Shown here: one piece after another, positions 11,701-53,398 of the stretch
How positions within the stretch are numbered: position 1 is the stretch's first letter
Layout: the number at the start of each line of letters is the position of its first letter
Origin: Carboxylicivirga sp.
GTDB taxonomy: Bacteria > Bacteroidota > Bacteroidia > Bacteroidales > Marinilabiliaceae
Direction: 5' to 3'
DNA length: 64,000 bases
Assembly (NCBI GenBank): GCA_025210475.1
Contig: JAOARW010000094.1
Location: 62,001-126,000 of the forward strand
The notes under the pieces: model-generated
The model's database searches: none
What the model saw: the letters and a program-made list of their open reading frames with translations, nothing else
What the model was told of the DNA's origin: nothing
Position numbers and translations under genes: made by a program

Positions 11701-13473
11701 ATGAACCAAACCCTTAAAATATACAGAATCAATAGACACCATAGACTATTGATAAATAAAGGTAATTCAGAATCTATTATTAAAATAATACTTGAAGCTT
11801 CATATAAAAAATATCAACAGCAAAAGACATTTCAGAAAGATAACCTTAGAACATTCTCCATTGATAATATAGTATACTATTTACATGTATTTACCTCTAA
11901 AGAAACTGTCTCTGATTGGGAAGAATTCTTACCTGATGACCTTACAAGGAATGAGGATTTTACCCAACAAAAGTTATCTCTTTTATTATTTATAGAAACT
12001 TTTACTGATCTTTACTGTGTAATTGGAGGAAATGCTTACCAAATAATATTACCATTCATAGATCATTCCTTTGGACTTAATACATATGCTAGAATAATGA
12101 ATCCAGCAACTGATGAACTAGCATCAATTAAATCAAGGGGTATTACAGGTGCAAGAGCTGGAATTAATGAACAATTTCGAGACAATTACAAAATAATAGA
12201 CTTTATTAAATTTGGAAAAATCCCACAAGAAATACACTTAAAACTTAGTGAGGAAACCTCAAACCTTCATTTTGACTTTCTCCAGAATAAGGTAAATGAA
12301 CGGATTCAAATATTTGTGAGCAAGGCCTTCAAAATTAAGAAAGGTATTGACTTTAGAATTCTTCACAGAATAATTGAAGAATTGACAATAATAGAAGAAC
12401 TAGTGCCTTCTGATTATCTTAGTTCATACAAAGAAATTACAGATGCTGACTTTATTAAAGATGTTTTAAGTGACTCTTTAATAACTAAAATATTTAATGA
12501 TACTATAAACATTGAAAGAAACATTTCAGATCCAGAAAAGGTATTTGAACATGATTTTTGTAATCCTAATAGTATTGAGCAATTCTATGAAGCAGATGAG
12601 TATAAACTAAAGGAACGTACGGAGAAAAAAGGGTACCGAACTTTCAAAACAGTTAACGATAGAAAAGAAATCTATAGAAGTGTTTTGTTGAGAGCAATGG
12701 AATTACATGGAGTAAATGACAAATTTAACTTTATGGTTTACCTTCAGGGAGTCAGGGTTGTTTGTTACCAAAGTAATAAACAAACAGTTGGTTCAAGTTT
12801 CTTGTTTCATATTACAACAGAATTATCTATAAAGGGTAAACCTTATTTTTTGATCGATACGAAATGGTATAGCTTAAGAGATTCTTTCGTAGAAGACCTA
12901 AAAGCTAATACATTGCATGTGCTAAAAACATACCAAGCTCCTGGAAATATATTGTTTCACAAATGGGACAAATCAAATATTAAAACAGAAAAAGAATATA
13001 ACGAATCCTATAATGACATACCTAATTACATTGTTATTGATACTATAATAATTGATGGTATTGAATTATGTGATTTACTATATTTTGATGACTCTAATCT
13101 ATATTTGATTCATGTTAAGTTTGGTTTTAGCTCAAAAGTTAGAGAATTAACCAATCAAATAACGATATCGGCAAGAAGACTAAGGGAAGTTCTTGCATCA
13201 CAAGATTCTGATTTTATGGAGAAGTTATTTAATAAGATTAGGTCTAAAAAACGAACTACTAGCAACTTGAATCTCGATGAATTTAAGAAGCTATTTGAAA
13301 AAAAGATATCATACATATTTGCATATACATCTCATTTAGGTGAAGACCTAATTATCCAAGATAATATAGAAAAGTTTGATTCTAATATCGCTAGATTTTC
13401 TCTTGTACAATGTTCTAGTGAAATGCGGGCAAACTACTACGATATGCTTAACTTTCAAATAATGAGAATTTAA
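11701..13473 (+). CDS. DUF6119 / TIGR04141-like putative defence nuclease
   Basis: The 590-residue protein fits the family of sporadically distributed DUF6119 (TIGR04141) proteins often found near phage defence genes (family recalled, not searched). Two regions support this: the GGNAYQIILPFIDHSFGLN segment near residue 120, and a C-terminal segment with E455, D458 and HVK at 471-473 followed by a QxxxSxRxL helix, which resembles a PD-(D/E)xK nuclease core with HVK as the final lysine motif. No signal peptide or membrane segment is seen. The gene is much more AT-rich than its surroundings and stands alone, flanked by a tandem array and REP-like elements, which suggests horizontal gain. The activity and target are not known. 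Confidence 0.7.
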   Translation: MNQTLKIYRINRHHRLLINKGNSESIIKIILEASYKKYQQQKTFQKDNLRTFSIDNIVYYLHVFTSKETVSDWEEFLPDDLTRNEDFTQQKLSLLLFIETFTDLYCVIGGNAYQIILPFIDHSFGLNTYARIMNPATDELASIKSRGITGARAGINEQFRDNYKIIDFIKFGKIPQEIHLKLSEETSNLHFDFLQNKVNERIQIFVSKAFKIKKGIDFRILHRIIEELTIIEELVPSDYLSSYKEITDADFIKDVLSDSLITKIFNDTINIERNISDPEKVFEHDFCNPNSIEQFYEADEYKLKERTEKKGYRTFKTVNDRKEIYRSVLLRAMELHGVNDKFNFMVYLQGVRVVCYQSNKQTVGSSFLFHITTELSIKGKPYFLIDTKWYSLRDSFVEDLKANTLHVLKTYQAPGNILFHKWDKSNIKTEKEYNESYNDIPNYIVIDTIIIDGIELCDLLYFDDSNLYLIHVKFGFSSKVRELTNQITISARRLREVLASQDSDFMEKLFNKIRSKKRTTSNLNLDEFKKLFEKKISYIFAYTSHLGEDLIIQDNIEKFDSNIARFSLVQCSSEMRANYYDMLNFQIMRI

Positions 13474-13625: not shown

Positions 13626-14156
13626 ATGAAGAAAAAATCAGGTTTAAACTTAGCTGCATTTTTAACAGTTATCATTTTAACTCAAAACGTATTCGGACAA
13701 AACAATCAGAACAGTGAAAATAGCGTATTCAACCCTAAAGGAATGGATAAAGAATTTTTCATATCAACTAATTCAGGAATCCTTAAAACTCCTTATGGAA
13801 TTAAAATTGGCTATATCTGTAATCCTGGAATTTATTTGGGATTTCGATACGGAACAGGTGAAGAATGGGAATATGACGAAGAAACAAAATCGACTAATTT
13901 ATACTCAATTGTTGCAGGACTCACAAAACCATTAATCATTAAGAATGACTTTTCGCTCGTTGCTCAATTAGGACTCGGGTATGGCCAATGGTGGGATTCT
14001 CGTCGAGTTAGCTGGACCAAGTCAGGAATTGAACTTGAAGGAGGACTGATGATGAAAAAGAAGCATTTCCTAGCGAATTTAACTGGTAATTGGTTAAACG
14101 GAAGTAAAACATATTCCACAGGCGATTTATGTTTAGGAGTAGGATATGTTTTCTAA
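13626..14156 (+). CDS. Small outer-membrane beta-barrel-like protein
   Basis: The 176-residue product begins with a signal peptide (a lysine-rich start, hydrophobic core to residue 24, cleavage near VFGQ). The rest alternates polar and hydrophobic residues with many Gly and aromatic residues and ends in GVGYVF, the terminal aromatic typical of outer-membrane barrels. No named family is recognised. It lies in the AT-rich accessory stretch between two REP-like elements and has no close operon partner. A porin or immunity-type role cannot be separated from a generic barrel on this evidence. Confidence 0.65.
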   Translation: MKKKSGLNLAAFLTVIILTQNVFGQNNQNSENSVFNPKGMDKEFFISTNSGILKTPYGIKIGYICNPGIYLGFRYGTGEEWEYDEETKSTNLYSIVAGLTKPLIIKNDFSLVAQLGLGYGQWWDSRRVSWTKSGIELEGGLMMKKKHFLANLTGNWLNGSKTYSTGDLCLGVGYVF

Positions 14157-46982: not shown

Positions 46983-49037
46983 ATGATAAGAAAATCAATT
47001 ATAATTACGCTAATTTTCCTGACTAGTCTCAGCGGATTTGTAAAAGCTGGTATTAACCAGCATGTAAAAGTGGGCGTGCATTATAATCCGCCTTTATGCT
47101 CAATCGATTCATCAAACAAGGCAAAGGGCATTTTTATCGATATTATCGATAAAGTTGCCACTTCGCAAAACTGGTCAGTTGAATATGTGCCAATAACCTT
47201 TGCTGAAGGCATGGATGCTCTTCAATATGGTAAAATTGATTTACTGACTACAGTTGCAAAAACCAAAGAACGGGAACAAATCGTATATTTCTCCGAAGAA
47301 ACCATTTTCACCAATTGGGGAGTAATTTATTCATCGAAGAAAAATGACATTAATGACATAACAGATTTGCAGGGTAAGAATCTGGCAATTGAGGTTGGAG
47401 ATATCCATGCTCAAGCGATTTCTCAACTTTTAAAGGATTTTAATATTGAGGCTAATCTAATCTGGTGCGACGACCTCAAAATGATCTTCGATAAACTATC
47501 GAATAATGAGGCAGATGCCGGTGCTGTTAATAAGATTTATGGGTACCAGCAAAACATGGATCAACACCTGAAAGCCACTTCAATAATATTTAACCCGGTT
47601 AACTTACATTTGGCCGGCGGTCCACTGTCAGTTGACTTATTGCAACAGTTTGACAAAGCTCTGATCCAAATAAAAGCATCCAAGCCTGATTTTTACCAGG
47701 AAGTTATTAACCAGTGGTTATCTAAAGATGTTAGAAAAACTCCTGCATGGCTTCACAGTCTTTTATATTCGCTTCTTTTCCTGACAATTATACTCCTGAT
47801 AATCTTGCTGTTTCAGCGAAGCATGGTCAAAAAAAGAACTGAGAGTCTAAACGAAGCTCAGAAAATTGGTGACCAAAGAGCTAAAACCATCAAGCAAATC
47901 GAACACGAAAAAACACTGATTTTAAATAGTCTTGATGAGCAGGTTGTGTTTATGGATCATCAATACAATCTGATTTGGGCAAACAATGCCTTCAAAAACA
48001 CATCGTCGCAACCTTTTGAAGAACTGATTGGCAAGAAATGTTATTCCGTTTATTTCAATCGGGATACCCCCTGTGAGTTTTGTCAATATGAAAAATCGCT
48101 AAAAACCAACCGGACCGAAGTAAGAGAACATGTTAGCGAAAGAGCGGGCAAAGTCTTTACACATAAAACACACCCGGTTTTTAATACCGAGCAACAACCC
48201 ATTGGTTTTGTTGAAATTTTGTCAGACATTACTAATAAAAAGAAACAGGAAGCCGAATTAATTGCTGCAAAAGAAAAAGCCGAACAGTCGGATTATTTAA
48301 AATCGGCCTTCTTAGCCAATATGTCGCACGAAATCAGAACCCCAATGAATGCGATTATCGGTTTTTCTGAATTATTGGAGGATGATACCTTAACCAAGGA
48401 TGAAAAGCACAACTACCTGAAAATCATCCAATCCAATGGCAACCAATTATTAAAACTTATTTCTGATATCCTAATATTCTCGCAAATTGAATCTGGCCAT
48501 GTTAACCTGCAGTTTAGCATGGTGGTAATCAAGAATTTCTTAATCGATATATTTAAGCAATTTGAAAATGAGATAAGCAAATATGATAAACCTGTTGCTA
48601 TTAAACTCGATCTACAAATTAATGACCAACTTGAACTTGAAACCGATGCTGTACGTTTAAAGCAAATAATTTTCAACCTTTTGACCAATGCCATTAAGTT
48701 TACCGAGAAAGGTAGCATCACACTTGGCGCAATAGTAAGTGATTCGAATTTAAACATGTACGTAAAAGATACGGGCATTGGCATTGCTCCAGACAAGCAA
48801 AAGGTTGTTTTTAAGCGTTTTTCGCAGATAGAAAATCCGAACCTCAAAAAAGCTTCCGGCTCCGGTTTAGGTCTCACCATTGCTCATGATTTAATCCACC
48901 AGCTAGGTGGTTGCATCCAACTGGAATCGGAAGTTAATGTTGGAAGTAAGTTCATTTTATCGCACCCTTTAAACCGTTATAAATTGGACAAAGGAGCAGA
49001 TTTCAACAAACCGCATATTCTTAATAATAAAAAGTAG
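46983..49037 (+). CDS. Sensor histidine kinase with periplasmic solute-binding domain
   Basis: The 684-residue protein has, in order: a signal peptide, an SBP_bac_3-type binding domain (about residues 28-245), one membrane helix (260-279), a coiled coil, a PAS domain (about 310-420), a HisKA domain with FLANMSHEIRTPMNAIIGFS, and an HATPase_c domain with NLLTNAIKFT, DTGIGI and GSGLGLTIAHDL. No receiver domain is attached. The PAS domain has a CEFCQY motif with a further cysteine (KKCYSVYF) that may bind metal or sense redox. No response regulator gene is adjacent, so its partner lies elsewhere. Confidence 0.92.
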   Translation: MIRKSIIITLIFLTSLSGFVKAGINQHVKVGVHYNPPLCSIDSSNKAKGIFIDIIDKVATSQNWSVEYVPITFAEGMDALQYGKIDLLTTVAKTKEREQIVYFSEETIFTNWGVIYSSKKNDINDITDLQGKNLAIEVGDIHAQAISQLLKDFNIEANLIWCDDLKMIFDKLSNNEADAGAVNKIYGYQQNMDQHLKATSIIFNPVNLHLAGGPLSVDLLQQFDKALIQIKASKPDFYQEVINQWLSKDVRKTPAWLHSLLYSLLFLTIILLIILLFQRSMVKKRTESLNEAQKIGDQRAKTIKQIEHEKTLILNSLDEQVVFMDHQYNLIWANNAFKNTSSQPFEELIGKKCYSVYFNRDTPCEFCQYEKSLKTNRTEVREHVSERAGKVFTHKTHPVFNTEQQPIGFVEILSDITNKKKQEAELIAAKEKAEQSDYLKSAFLANMSHEIRTPMNAIIGFSELLEDDTLTKDEKHNYLKIIQSNGNQLLKLISDILIFSQIESGHVNLQFSMVVIKNFLIDIFKQFENEISKYDKPVAIKLDLQINDQLELETDAVRLKQIIFNLLTNAIKFTEKGSITLGAIVSDSNLNMYVKDTGIGIAPDKQKVVFKRFSQIENPNLKKASGSGLGLTIAHDLIHQLGGCIQLESEVNVGSKFILSHPLNRYKLDKGADFNKPHILNNKK

Positions 49038-49118: not shown

Positions 49119-49148
49119 TTTGCAATTGCAAATATATTCATACATTTG
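49119..49148 (+). promoter_or_regulatory. Promoter of the pheA leader
   Basis: TTTG (49119-49122), 18 bases, then TACATTTG (49141-49148), both full matches to the Bacteroidota housekeeping promoter, 19 bases before the leader peptide ATG. Confidence 0.7.
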
Positions 49149-49166
49149 CATCTAAATAACAAAGCA

Positions 49167-49223
49167 ATGATGGCTCACACTTTCTTTTATAACTATTATT
49201 ATTTCTTTTTTAGCAACAGTTAA
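49167..49223 (+). CDS. Phe/Tyr leader peptide
   Basis: An 18-residue ORF reading MMAHTFFYNYYYFFFSNS holds five Phe and four Tyr codons. It starts 19 bases after a good promoter and ends at TAA 49221-49223. Its stop overlaps the antiterminator arm. The layout is that of a classical attenuator: stalling at Phe/Tyr codons near the end leaves the arm free, while reaching the stop covers it. Confidence 0.9.
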   Translation: MMAHTFFYNYYYFFFSNS

Positions 49224-49297
49224 AGAGGTGGGCATTGTATGATATAAACGAAACAACATAAATTTTTAAAACCCGCCTCTTACAGGCGGGTTTTTTT
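49223..49297 (+). promoter_or_regulatory. Transcription attenuator for the pheA operon
   Basis: The terminator is a stem AAACCCGCCT/AGGCGGGTTT (about 49269-49293) with seven T to 49297, ending 20 bases before pheA. The antiterminator arm AAGAGGTGGG (49223-49232) can pair over ten bases (one G-U) with CCCGCCTCTT (49272-49281), which contains the left arm of the terminator stem. The two structures exclude each other. Confidence 0.9.
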
Positions 49298-49316
49298 ATG
49301 ACCATAAGTTAAAACC

Positions 49317-50216
49317 ATGAATCAAACAAAGAAGAAAATAGCCATTCAGGGATGGCCGGGAGCAAACCATGAAATTGCAGCTAAGGCATTTTTCGAGGAA
49401 GACAACATTGAGGTAGTACCGTGCCTTACCTTTCCTGATTTGTTTGAAACCCTAAAGAAAGATCGCGATTGCTATGGCATTATTGCCATCGAAAATACAT
49501 TAGTTGGCAGCCTGTTACCCAACTACACCATGCTAAAAGACAGCGACCTGGTAATTATCGGAGAATACAAGCTCCGCATCAAGCACCAGTTCCTAGCACT
49601 GCCGGGCCAATCAATTGAAGATATAAAAGAAGTATACTCGCACCCAATGGCGATTGCTCAATGTGAAGCCTTCTTTAAAAACTATCCGCACATTAAACTA
49701 ATTGAATCAGAAGATACAGCCCTTAGCGCCAAACGTATTGCCGATGAACAAATTAAAGGTATTGGTGCCATTGCTTCCGAGTTAGCAGCTGAAATGTATC
49801 AATTAGAAACGCTGGCAAAGAATATTGAAACCAATAAAAAGAATTTCACCCGCTTTCTTGTCATTACAGATAAAGCAAAAACAGAGGTAGACGAACTTCT
49901 GGAACAAAACAGAGTCAATAAATCATCCATTGTTTTTGCCTTGCCTCACGAAGAAGGAAGCTTATCGAAAATACTGACCATACTGGCTTTTTATAATATC
50001 AACCTAACAAAAATTCAATCCTTACCCATTGTTGGACAGGAGTGGGAATATTTATTCTACGTTGATCTTACATTTAACGATTACAAAAGGTATTTGCAGT
50101 CTTTGAATGCCATAAAGCCGCTTACCAGCAAATTAAAATCGCTTGGTGAATATGAAAAAGGGCGACAGTCATACCCCGTTAACAATGGACATTTTGAAAC
50201 CGAACAAGCAATATAA
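49317..50216 (+). CDS. pheA: Prephenate dehydratase
   Basis: The 299-residue protein turns prephenate into phenylpyruvate. It has the dehydratase domain (AIQGWPGANHEIAAKAFF, IIAIENTLVGSLLPNY, VYSHPMAIAQCEAF, IGAIASELAAEMY, NKKNFTRFLVI) and a C-terminal ACT domain starting near residue 198 (SSIVFALPHEEGSLSKILTI) that in the family binds phenylalanine for feedback control. It is the first gene after the attenuator and is two bases from the next gene, so expression is controlled by leader translation. No chorismate mutase domain is fused here; that is on the DAHP synthase. Confidence 0.96.
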   Translation: MNQTKKKIAIQGWPGANHEIAAKAFFEEDNIEVVPCLTFPDLFETLKKDRDCYGIIAIENTLVGSLLPNYTMLKDSDLVIIGEYKLRIKHQFLALPGQSIEDIKEVYSHPMAIAQCEAFFKNYPHIKLIESEDTALSAKRIADEQIKGIGAIASELAAEMYQLETLAKNIETNKKNFTRFLVITDKAKTEVDELLEQNRVNKSSIVFALPHEEGSLSKILTILAFYNINLTKIQSLPIVGQEWEYLFYVDLTFNDYKRYLQSLNAIKPLTSKLKSLGEYEKGRQSYPVNNGHFETEQAI

Positions 50217-50218
50217 GC

Positions 50219-51397
50219 ATGCAAACAATTAACTCTATAGAACCCGCCAATCGAATTGGAACAGTTGAAGAGTACTACTTCTCGATCAAATTGAAGGAGT
50301 TAGAACAACTCAGGCAAGCCGGCAAGCCTATTATTAATATGGGTATCGGTAATCCTGATTTACCACCTGCACCAGAGGTTCTGGCTGAATTAAACAAACA
50401 AAGTTCTTCGGAAAGCAACCATGGCTACCAAAGCTATGTTGGCATACCAGAACTACGCGAGGCCATGAGCCAGTGGTACAAAAACTATTACCAAATAGAG
50501 GTAAATGCCACTAATGAAGTTCTGCCATTAATGGGCTCAAAAGAAGGCATTATGCACATTACCCTGGCTTTTGTTAATCCCGGCGATGGCGTCTTGGTTC
50601 CGAACCCGGGCTATCCCACTTACGCATCGGTAAGCAAAATTGCCGAAGCCAATCTTATTCACTACGATTTGGATGAGCAAAACAACTGGCTACCCAAGCT
50701 TGACGAACTGGAGAAACAGGACTTGAGCAAGGTGAAATTAATGTGGATTAACTACCCGAACATGCCAACAGGAGCCAATGCCAGCAAGGATTTCTTTGAG
50801 AAAATTATTGCCTTTGGCAAAAAGCACAACATTGTTATTGTTAACGATAATCCCTATAGTTTTATCCTGAACGATCAACATCTAAGCATTCTGTCCATTG
50901 AAGGCGCCAAAGACATTGCCATTGAGTTAAACTCCTTGAGCAAATCGCACAACATGGCCGGCTGGCGTGTAGGTATGGCCGTATCCAACCCACAGTTTAT
51001 CCAATACATCCTGCGCGTAAAAAGCAACATGGATTCGGGCATGTTCAAGCCGCTGCAACTGGCCGCTGCAAAAGCACTGCAGTTGGGATCTGATTGGTAT
51101 GCCAACATCAACAATGAGTACCTTAAACGTCGTACACTGGTGTTTGAGATCATGGATTTGCTCGAATGTGAATACGACACAAACCAAACCGGCATGTTCG
51201 TTTGGGCACGCATTCCCGATCGCTACAAAGACAGTGCTGAATTATCGGACGAAATACTCTACGGATGTGATGTTTTTATTACACCCGGATTTATTTTTGG
51301 CGATAATGGCAAACGCTACATACGCATCAGCCTATGCACCAACCAAGAAGTACTAAAAGAGTCACAACAACGCATTAAAACATTAAAAACAAAATAA
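50219..51397 (+). CDS. Class I/II aminotransferase, aromatic pathway
   Basis: The 392-residue PLP enzyme has the fold type I pattern: NMGIGNPDLPPAPEV, GSKEGIMH, PNPGYPTYASV, WINYPNMPTGANAS, NDNPYSFIL and the PLP lysine in SLSKSHNMAGWRVG. It lies between pheA and the DAHP synthase with gaps of two bases each side, so it most likely transaminates phenylpyruvate, 4-hydroxyphenylpyruvate or prephenate. The family also includes LL-diaminopimelate and alanine aminotransferases; the aromatic role rests on context. Confidence 0.88.
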   Translation: MQTINSIEPANRIGTVEEYYFSIKLKELEQLRQAGKPIINMGIGNPDLPPAPEVLAELNKQSSSESNHGYQSYVGIPELREAMSQWYKNYYQIEVNATNEVLPLMGSKEGIMHITLAFVNPGDGVLVPNPGYPTYASVSKIAEANLIHYDLDEQNNWLPKLDELEKQDLSKVKLMWINYPNMPTGANASKDFFEKIIAFGKKHNIVIVNDNPYSFILNDQHLSILSIEGAKDIAIELNSLSKSHNMAGWRVGMAVSNPQFIQYILRVKSNMDSGMFKPLQLAAAKALQLGSDWYANINNEYLKRRTLVFEIMDLLECEYDTNQTGMFVWARIPDRYKDSAELSDEILYGCDVFITPGFIFGDNGKRYIRISLCTNQEVLKESQQRIKTLKTK

Positions 51398-51399
51398 CC

Positions 51400-52497
51400 A
51401 TGGAAAATCAATTAGATCTGCAACCATTAGCGCTTCCCGGCCTGGAATTGAAGCGCCCCATTATTATTGCCGGGCCATGTAGTGCCGAAACGGAAGAGCA
51501 AACACTTGAAACAGCCAGACAACTGGCCGCACAGGGTGTGAATATATTTCGTGCCGGTATCTGGAAGCCACGAACCCGTCCCGGTGCTTTCGAAGGCGTT
51601 GGAACCGTTGGTTTACCTTGGTTAAAGAAGGTAAAAGAAGAAACCGGCATGTTTGTAGCGGTTGAAGTAGCCAATGCCCACCATGTATACGAAGCACTTA
51701 AGTTTGGTGTGGACATGTTATGGATTGGTGCCCGTACCACAGCCAACCCTTTTGCCGTTCAAGAAGTGGCCGATGCTTTGGCAGGCGTTGACAAACCTGT
51801 ATTAATCAAAAATCCAGTGAACCCTGATCTGGAGCTTTGGATTGGTGCCATCGAGCGGGTCAATCGTGCGGGTGTTAAAATGATTGGAGCTATTCATCGC
51901 GGATTCAGCACTTACGACAAAACCAAATACCGCAACAACCCGGAATGGCAGATTCCAATTGAGCTGCGTCGTCGTATTCCAGAATTACCAATCATTACCG
52001 ATCCGAGCCACATTAGCGGCAAGAGTGAAATGATTGCTCAAATTTCTCAGGAAGCCATGGACCTGAACTTCAACGGACTGATCATCGAATCGCATCGTTG
52101 CCCGGAAAAGGCCTGGAGTGACGCCAGCCAGCAGGTGACACCACAACATCTTGGCGAGATCAAACAAAACCTCGTAGTGCGTCGTTCTGCCATTGGTGAT
52201 ACGCCCCGTGTTACATTGGATGAATTGCGCCAAAAAATTGACCAGGTGGATATGCAGATTTTGGAGATTTTAAAATCACGCATGAAAATCTCGGAAGCCA
52301 TTGGTAAATACAAACACGAAAACAACATCACGATCCTTCAGACTCGCCGCTACGACGAAGTGATGAACAACCGTCGTAAACTGGCTGAAGAAGTTGGTTT
52401 AAGCCCGGAATTTGTGGTGAAAGTTTACGAGCACATTCATGAGGAATCAATCAACCGCCAGAACCAGATTATGAATAAGGAACTGGCTAAGAAATAA
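51400..52497 (+). CDS. Bifunctional DAHP synthase / chorismate mutase
   Basis: The 365-residue protein joins a class I-beta DAHP synthase (residues 1-260, with IIAGPCSAETEEQ, RAGIWKPRTRPGAFEG, GARTTANPFAVQE, KNPVNPDLELW, ITDPSHISGKSE and IIESHRCPEKAWSD) to a C-terminal chorismate mutase of the AroQ type (VTLDELRQKIDQVDMQILEI ... RMKISEAIGKYK). It makes the first committed compound of the shikimate path and also prephenate from chorismate. The fusion lets mutase-bound prephenate control the synthase in relatives. It is part of the attenuated operon. Confidence 0.95.
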   Translation: MENQLDLQPLALPGLELKRPIIIAGPCSAETEEQTLETARQLAAQGVNIFRAGIWKPRTRPGAFEGVGTVGLPWLKKVKEETGMFVAVEVANAHHVYEALKFGVDMLWIGARTTANPFAVQEVADALAGVDKPVLIKNPVNPDLELWIGAIERVNRAGVKMIGAIHRGFSTYDKTKYRNNPEWQIPIELRRRIPELPIITDPSHISGKSEMIAQISQEAMDLNFNGLIIESHRCPEKAWSDASQQVTPQHLGEIKQNLVVRRSAIGDTPRVTLDELRQKIDQVDMQILEILKSRMKISEAIGKYKHENNITILQTRRYDEVMNNRRKLAEEVGLSPEFVVKVYEHIHEESINRQNQIMNKELAKK

Positions 52498-52579: not shown

Positions 52580-53356
52580 ATGAAAATTTGTATTCTAGGA
52601 GCTGGAAAAATGGGTACCTGGCTAACCGATGCCCTTTGCCTGCAGCATGAGGTAGCAATTTTTGACAAAGACATTACCCGGCTTCGCTATGTTTTTAATA
52701 CGCAACGACTAACTAAACTGGAGGAAATAAGCGAGTTTGCACCTGAACTCCTGATCAATGCGGTAAGCCTAAAATATACCCTGCCTGCCTTTGAGGAGGT
52801 ACTTCCCTATCTGCCTAAAGAATGTATTATTTCTGATATTTCTTCGGTAAAAACAGGTTTGCAAAGCTTTTACGAAAACAGTGGCATGCGTTACGTTTCC
52901 ACCCACCCTATGTTTGGCCCCACCTTTGCCAATCTGAAGGATTTGAGCATGCACCATGCCATTATCATTACCCAGAGCGATCATTTGGGCAAAGCCTTCT
53001 TTAAGGATTTTTATGCCTCGCTGGGCTTAAACATTCACGAGTACAGCTTCGATGCCCACGATGAAACCATCGCCTACTCTCTGTCCATCCCCTTTTCTTC
53101 GTCACTGGTTTTTGCCGCTTGCATGAAACATCAGAAAGCACCCGGAACCACCTTTAATAAGCACATGAACATTGCCAAAGGTTTGCTTTCGGAGGAAGAT
53201 CACCTGCTGACCGAAATTCTTTTTAACCCATTCACCTATGAACAAGTAGAAAACATTCGCTTTCAGCTAAAGCACCTCCTGGAGCTAATTGACAAAAAAG
53301 ACTCCAAAGGCATGCAGGATTTTCTGAACATGGTTCGAAAAAACATTGAAGAGTAA
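52580..53356 (+). CDS. tyrA: Prephenate dehydrogenase
   Basis: The 258-residue protein has an N-terminal NAD-binding motif ILGAGKMGTWLTDAL and the prephenate dehydrogenase segments CIISDISSVKTGLQSFYE, YVSTHPMFGPTFANL and LGLNIHEYSFDAHDETIAYS. It oxidatively decarboxylates prephenate to 4-hydroxyphenylpyruvate on the way to tyrosine. There is no ACT domain, so feedback by tyrosine must come from elsewhere, perhaps the leader peptide. It is the last gene of the operon and is followed by a terminator. Confidence 0.95.
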   Translation: MKICILGAGKMGTWLTDALCLQHEVAIFDKDITRLRYVFNTQRLTKLEEISEFAPELLINAVSLKYTLPAFEEVLPYLPKECIISDISSVKTGLQSFYENSGMRYVSTHPMFGPTFANLKDLSMHHAIIITQSDHLGKAFFKDFYASLGLNIHEYSFDAHDETIAYSLSIPFSSSLVFAACMKHQKAPGTTFNKHMNIAKGLLSEEDHLLTEILFNPFTYEQVENIRFQLKHLLELIDKKDSKGMQDFLNMVRKNIEE

Positions 53357-53363
53357 TCAAAAA

Positions 53364-53398
53364 CTATCAGCTGAAGATTTTTGGCTGATAGCTTTTTT
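53364..53398 (+). terminator. Terminator of the aromatic operon
   Basis: CTATCAGC pairs with GCTGATAG around 12 bases, followed by CTTTTTT. Confidence 0.8.

Follow-up and report, generated by a model that had tools for sequence, protein, structure and literature searches.

The window analysed here, a 64 000-nt stretch of the 7.4-Mb genome of Carboxylicivirga sp., carries on its forward strand the gene order pheA, aminotransferase, DAHP synthase-chorismate mutase (DAHPS-CM) and tyrA. This operon had been proposed in an original prediction from the sequence, and the gene identities were confirmed by Pfam. A histidine-kinase gene (46983-49037) lies upstream on the same strand, and the following features were annotated between it and the end of the operon.

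49119..49148, +, predicted Bacteroidota-type promoter (TTTG at 49119-49122, an 18-nt spacer and TACATTTG at 49141-49148)
49167..49223, +, leader peptide ORF MMAHTFFYNYYYFFFSNS up to its stop (control codons 49182-49211; Phe/Tyr run in 62/62 scored family genomes)
49173..49178, +, candidate protector arm 1, GCTCAC (pairs with GTGGGC at 49228-49233; 6 bp, -7.2 kcal/mol)
49205..49210, +, second candidate protector arm, CTTTTT, within the final control codons (pairs with AAAGAG at 49222-49227; six-pair helix by RNAalifold)
49223..49232, +, antiterminator arm 2, AAGAGGTGGG (10 bp with 49272-49281; the 8-bp core covaries over 53 sequences)
49269..49297, +, intrinsic terminator of arms 3 and 4, loop CTTAC and T-run (-15.8 kcal/mol; covariation; RNAalifold)
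49317..50216, +, pheA, prephenate dehydratase (PF00800, PDT, E 2.5e-56)
50219..51397, +, class I/II aminotransferase (PF00155, Aminotran_1_2, E 4.7e-58)
51400..52497, +, DAHPS-CM fusion (PF00793, DAHP_synth_1, and PF01817, CM_2)
52580..53356, +, tyrA, prephenate dehydrogenase (PF02153, PDH_N, E 1.9e-09)
53364..53391, +, terminator-like site after tyrA, the likely operon end (12-pair stem and T-run; generic terminator scan)

The leader ORF was read by eye and checked by script. Counted from the first of two adjacent ATGs, it has the predicted 18 sense codons with five Phe and four Tyr (ATG ATG GCT CAC ACT TTC TTT TAT AAC TAT TAT TAT TTC TTT TTT AGC AAC AGT TAA). The prediction that the ORF ends exactly where a pairing arm begins was right to within one base, the first base of arm 2 being the last A of the stop codon. 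The ten-base arm was also found to pair as foreseen with the left side of the terminator: arm 2 and CCCGCCTCTT (49272-49281) pair at 10/10 positions with one G-U, and this pairing excludes that of the terminator. The terminator hairpin, AAACCCGCCT-CTTAC-AGGCGGGTTT, spans 49269-49293 and is followed by a T-run up to 49297, leaving 19 nt to the pheA ATG at 49317 where 20 bases had been predicted. The duplex energies of the two competing arm pairs are equal (2:3 and 3:4, -16.7 kcal/mol each), and the leader RNA from 49160 to 49300 folds with a z-score of -4.5, none of 200 dinucleotide shuffles being as stable. A generic terminator scan of the window reported six terminator-like sites, a number not above that in shuffles (mean 8.2), and the attenuator terminator was not among them. 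For the promoter type, the consensus TAnnTTTG/TTTG is quoted in PMC7366714; the motif TANNTTTG was present in the 80 nt before the leader start at 88 of 103 loci, as against 107 of 1030 shuffles.

Covariation was evaluated on 53 distinct family sequences aligned with MAFFT; every one was a full match of the scan described below and so selected for having the parts. In the terminator, 94.3% of 530 cells were paired, as against 29.7 to 62.5% in slid registers, and 7 of 10 pairs had changed on both sides; cells with a double change numbered 73 where shuffling gave 27.8, and the number of pair types was not special, being reached by 73 of 500 shuffles. In the antiterminator core, pairing held in 92.2% of 423 cells (38 to 56% in slid registers), and there were 34 double-change cells (10.3 shuffled), with a double change in four of its eight pairs, a count that 19 of 500 shuffles reached. 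Because arm 3 serves both the terminator and the antiterminator, its changes (CCCGCC, CCCACC, CTCACT) need matching in arms 2 and 4 together. Apart from the terminator, which it recovered unprompted, the RNAalifold consensus of the 53 relatives contained a single weak helix, in which the last control codons pair with the beginning of arm 2. In this second helix (CTTTTT with AAAGAG, consensus columns 45-50 with 69-74), a single cell had changed on both sides.

The presence of a protector helix is uncertain, with partial support from a free duplex test of arms 1 and 2. Over 96 loci, the mean 1:2 energy was -8.7 kcal/mol, as against -6.6 kcal/mol with arm 1 shuffled and -6.7 kcal/mol when arms were swapped between loci (sd 0.2, 20 permutations), and 70 of the 96 loci were better than their own shuffled mean. 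When the register was fixed, 1:2 pairing was not above shuffles on four of five measures.

To score conservation, one fixed rule set was applied to the 420 nt before pheA: a leader was an ORF in which 10 codons included at least 5 Phe/Tyr, a terminator had to lie within 130 nt of the gene, an antiterminator arm needed at least six pairs and at least three G-C, and a locus with all three parts was called full. Within the family, 65 genomes matched (own genome included) and 62 were scored, with a leader in 62/62 and a terminator in 59/62; 54 were full, 5 had leader and terminator with no antiterminator arm by the scan, and 3 had the leader only. Of 22 matching genomes in the order, 19 were scored (17 full, 1 leader only, 1 none), and ten further GTDB loci gave 7 full, 1 leader and terminator (L057, probably a chance match), 1 leader only and 1 none. 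A class draw had 41 matching genomes besides the own genome, of which 40 were scored as 18 full, 1 leader and terminator, 5 leader only and 16 none; without four loci of the same order (L130, L138, L142 and L149), the remaining 36 comprised 16, 1, 3 and 16, respectively. Forty more order genomes, picked independently of the leader, gave 26 full, 3 leader and terminator, 6 leader only and 5 none. By this sequence scoring, the attenuator is common in Bacteroidales and occurs in some of the rest of the class sample, and it was detected in 0 of 28 scored loci outside the class (67 matching genomes there). Conserved Phe/Tyr codons and covarying stems in relatives, the check named with the original prediction, were thus both found.

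The first conservation count leaves out L009, L020 and L102 (upstream cut or missing), L031-L047, L058 and L059 (for the most part contigs already represented by other loci; L059 is partial), L134 (a repeat of the own genome), L109, L110 and L151 (no usable start) and G076. A prephenate dehydratase match was obtained in 42 of 159 class genomes versus 88 of 99 in the phylum draw, which sampling or search sensitivity may explain. Tandem Phe/Tyr-rich leaders before pheA, each with its own terminator, were found by script in 3 of 128 upstreams (L091, L144 and L156), and L148 showed tandem leaders by eye without being among these three.

From sequence and comparison, namely the ORF, the alternative stems, their covariation and conservation, the operon content and a partial match of codons to operon content, this region is very probably a ribosome-mediated transcription attenuator responding jointly to the charging of tRNA-Phe and of tRNA-Tyr. 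For promoter use, ribosome position, coupling, termination and the amino-acid response, we infer the following course of events. Transcription would begin shortly upstream of the leader, with a ribosome trailing RNA polymerase through the 18 codons of the ORF. A shortage of Phe- or Tyr-tRNA would make the ribosome stall on codons 6-15, its leading edge not yet at arm 2, so that arm 2 could pair with arm 3, no terminator would form and pheA-aminotransferase-DAHPS/CM-tyrA would be transcribed. When both tRNAs are charged, it would reach the stop codon at 49221-49223 and cover arm 2, arms 3 and 4 would pair, and transcription would stop near 49297. Without a translating ribosome, an upstream arm may sequester arm 2.

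The spacing of the parts was compared with this scheme. The stop codon adjoins arm 2 in the window, and in many relatives the ORF runs through arm 2 with the stop just beyond (e.g. ...KEVGL, AAA GAG GTG GGT); the median distance from the last Phe/Tyr control codon to arm 2 is 14 nt. Assuming that the ribosome footprint spans -15 to +16 relative to the P site, half of arm 2 or more would be masked by a ribosome at the stop codon in 79 of 96 full loci, and less than half in the other 17. The geometry thus fits arm 2 being free while a ribosome is stalled and masked by one that has finished, except in those 17 of 96 loci.

We then compared the leader codons with operon content in 100 genomes in four sets, of which 90 had a scan-detected leader and enough downstream sequence. 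Set A (L210-L229) included three genomes chosen for Tyr-less leaders, set B (L230-L269) was chosen independently of the leader, set C (L270-L289) had 15 genomes chosen independently of the leader and 5 with known leaders, and set D (L290-L309) consisted mostly of known leaders, with L290 chosen for its lack of Tyr. Nine rows were left out of the table for sets A-C: L246, L247, L261, L277 and L280 had no detected leader, the upstream of L220 lay outside the scoring, that of L262 was cut off, the contig of L283 ended too soon, and L268 had a mixed leader by eye and none by the detector, its gene start probably being mis-set.

Of the 103 loci that had both leader and terminator, 98 carried two or more Phe codons together with two or more Tyr codons. 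All 83 leaders with at least two Tyr codons in the control run preceded DAHPS-CM (65 in the first three sets, 18 in set D). Of the seven with at most one Tyr codon, four, from four different families, preceded a stand-alone pheA (L210, L211, L212 and L241), and three preceded an operon with DAHPS-CM, namely L278 and L285 (one Tyr) and L290 (none). The eight stand-alone pheA genes comprised those four and four without a leader by the scan (L246, L247, L277 and L280); none had a mixed leader. Fisher p values were 1.5e-05 for the first three sets, 0.058 for sets B and C, 0.029 for the unselected set B alone (one genome) and, computed by hand with set D included (table 4, 3 / 0, 83), 1.4e-05, and they are only a guide because of the relatedness of the genomes and because three of the four loci with a stand-alone pheA had been fetched for their Tyr-less leaders, their operon content being unknown then. 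Both arrangements occur within one family (f19), which has a Phe-only leader before a stand-alone pheA (G088, L210) and a mixed leader before pheA with aminotransferase and DAHPS-CM (G440, L250). The predicted reading of Phe and Tyr by one leader is supported by this match, with three exceptions in 90.

A rule that Tyr-less leaders always precede a stand-alone pheA was dropped, as L290 has no Tyr codon in its detected run and a full operon. In this genome (G025, also L066), the Phe-rich run occupies a reading frame different from that in the near relatives L064 and L070, and the exception may reflect a frame difference or an assembly error. L309 (G129, set D) has pheA followed by an aminotransferase, with no DAHPS-CM within 5.1 kb and no leader detected. 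In L261 (G400, a 1.2-Mb genome), no leader was detected before a pheA-aminotransferase-DAHPS-tyrA operon, and the attenuator may have been lost there.

The same attenuator could respond to Phe limitation alone, with the Tyr codons tolerated as neighbours of Phe codons one base apart. Phe codons do outnumber Tyr codons in full loci (555 F and 359 Y of 2278 leader residues), F and Y exchange at single positions among relatives, and full or partial operons follow the three exceptional leaders, which have no more than one Tyr codon. We nevertheless consider Phe-only sensing unlikely, since it does not account for the presence of DAHPS-CM behind all 83 leaders with two or more Tyr codons or for the lack of a mixed leader at any stand-alone pheA. 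Antitermination by sequence-specific arrest of the nascent peptide, as in TnaC, in place of stalling at hungry codons, would agree with the strong conservation of a FYFYFF core within some genera; it is very improbable given that F/Y order, flanking residues and leader length differ widely between families and that the same RNA switch occurs with both Phe-only and Phe/Tyr leaders.

Sensing of Trp is not claimed: 35 Trp among the 2278 leader residues (1.5%) represent no clear excess over its ordinary frequency. In most of eight leaders (L063, L067, L071, L075, L077, L079, L100 and L115), the Phe/Tyr run is followed by a Trp codon, with a second Trp codon within or close to arm 2.

Chance occurrence was measured with two controls. 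Leader and terminator together appeared in 0 of 477 dinucleotide shuffles and a leader alone in 66; among 336 gene upstreams of the same genome (the window and 400 kb), one was full, which was pheA itself, and 30 had a leader only. A lone leader is therefore weak evidence and the combination strong, as the former is frequent in both controls and the latter is not. These counts bear on the reading that the terminator merely ends the transcript of the upstream histidine-kinase gene and that the ORF is a chance product of AT-rich DNA. The kinase gene is indeed on the same strand, and F/Y-rich ORFs without the other parts do occur at those 30 upstreams; yet the combination is found once in 336, and leader, arm 2 and terminator stay together before pheA across families and covary, which makes this reading hardly tenable. 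Regulation by a metabolite riboswitch, a T-box or a protein-bound leader with an incidental ORF, to which the structured 5' region might point, is extremely doubtful in view of the consensus fold, which has nothing beyond the terminator and the weak intra-leader helix, and of the comparison with Rfam, in which no family reached its gathering score in the window.

The best of the Rfam matches, all sub-threshold, was Phe_leader (RF01859; 41.3 bits, E 8.6e-06). The gathering score of this family is 55 bits, so by the family cut-off the Carboxylicivirga leader is not a member. It shares with the enterobacterial pheA leader (pheL, RF01859) a short Phe-rich leader ORF, alternative antiterminator and terminator, and the position before pheA. 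Unlike pheL, which has Phe codons and is not known to have Tyr codons, it mixes codons for Phe and Tyr, stands before four genes that include DAHPS-CM and tyrA, and has a predicted Bacteroidota-type promoter. The Phe/Tyr attenuator would be a textbook kind of control, an interpretation that is well supported by the sequence comparisons, and the enterobacterial pheL and trpL attenuators work in the way proposed here. Enterobacterial multivalent attenuators, namely thr (Thr/Ile) and ilv (Ile/Val/Leu), likewise use one leader for several end products, with other amino acids and in another phylum. The Bacteroid-trp RNA motif (RF01692), which precedes trp genes, differs from the present attenuator in its amino acid; it had no match in the Carboxylicivirga genome among 150 scored of 2027 first-look candidates and matched 1 of 14 control genomes (Bacteroides ihuae). 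It is described as a probable cis-regulatory RNA of Bacteroidetes (PMC2864571).

The view in the original prediction that such attenuators are less well described in Bacteroidota was fair, but they are not unreported: a pheA 5' element, and signs of leader peptides ahead of amino-acid operons, were given for Flavobacteriaceae in 2021 (PMC9723704), the elements of Flavobacterium psychrophilum coming from the same phylum as the one described here. The passages concerned in PMC9723704, unlike the present analysis, give no Phe/Tyr codons, arms or link between codons and operon. In titles and the beginnings of abstracts, among the matches listed, we found no other Bacteroidota Phe/Tyr attenuator. 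Added here are the anatomy, the extent across Bacteroidales and into part of Bacteroidia, the evidence of covariation and the finding that Tyr codons partly match operon content; the most interesting feature is the bivalent codon set, which mostly tracks what the operon contains. Tentatively, and without favouring it over other histories, we suggest that a bivalent Phe/Tyr attenuator may be widespread and perhaps ancestral in Bacteroidia, with control codons re-tuned to the remaining operon products (Tyr lost where pheA stands alone) and occasional tandem duplication.

The locus provides a clear candidate, in many Bacteroidales, for control of aromatic amino-acid synthesis through leader translation and, since Tyr codons are absent from some leaders of stand-alone pheA genes, a natural test of codon sensing. 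In Bacteroides thetaiotaomicron, short ORFs reminiscent of leader peptides have been noted, and classical Shine-Dalgarno sequences are lacking (PMC7366714). The leader also opens transcription-translation coupling to testing in a phylum that lacks such sequences; if the bivalent attenuator is truly widespread, ribosomes must track RNA polymerase closely despite mRNAs without classical Shine-Dalgarno sequences.

The same attenuator test was run for other amino acids over the same 336 gene upstreams. Upstream of hisG (L206, ~16096 of G000:C37), a His-rich leader MKTRQNHIHHHHHYFSIRMS was found with a terminator and an antiterminator arm, and upstream of ilvD (L191, ~13729-13750 of G000:C37), an Ile/Leu/Val-rich leader MKFNLSLILNIIIILVVIIRT also with both parts. 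With His and Ile/Leu/Val leaders in the same genome, attenuation may be a general habit of this organism. A Thr/Ile-rich ORF, MINITTNTTILTTTTPWGV, not an attenuator by the scan, was found by eye within 300 nt before position 11814 of G000:C10 (L208), and the gene downstream of it is an 811-residue frame matching homoserine dehydrogenase.
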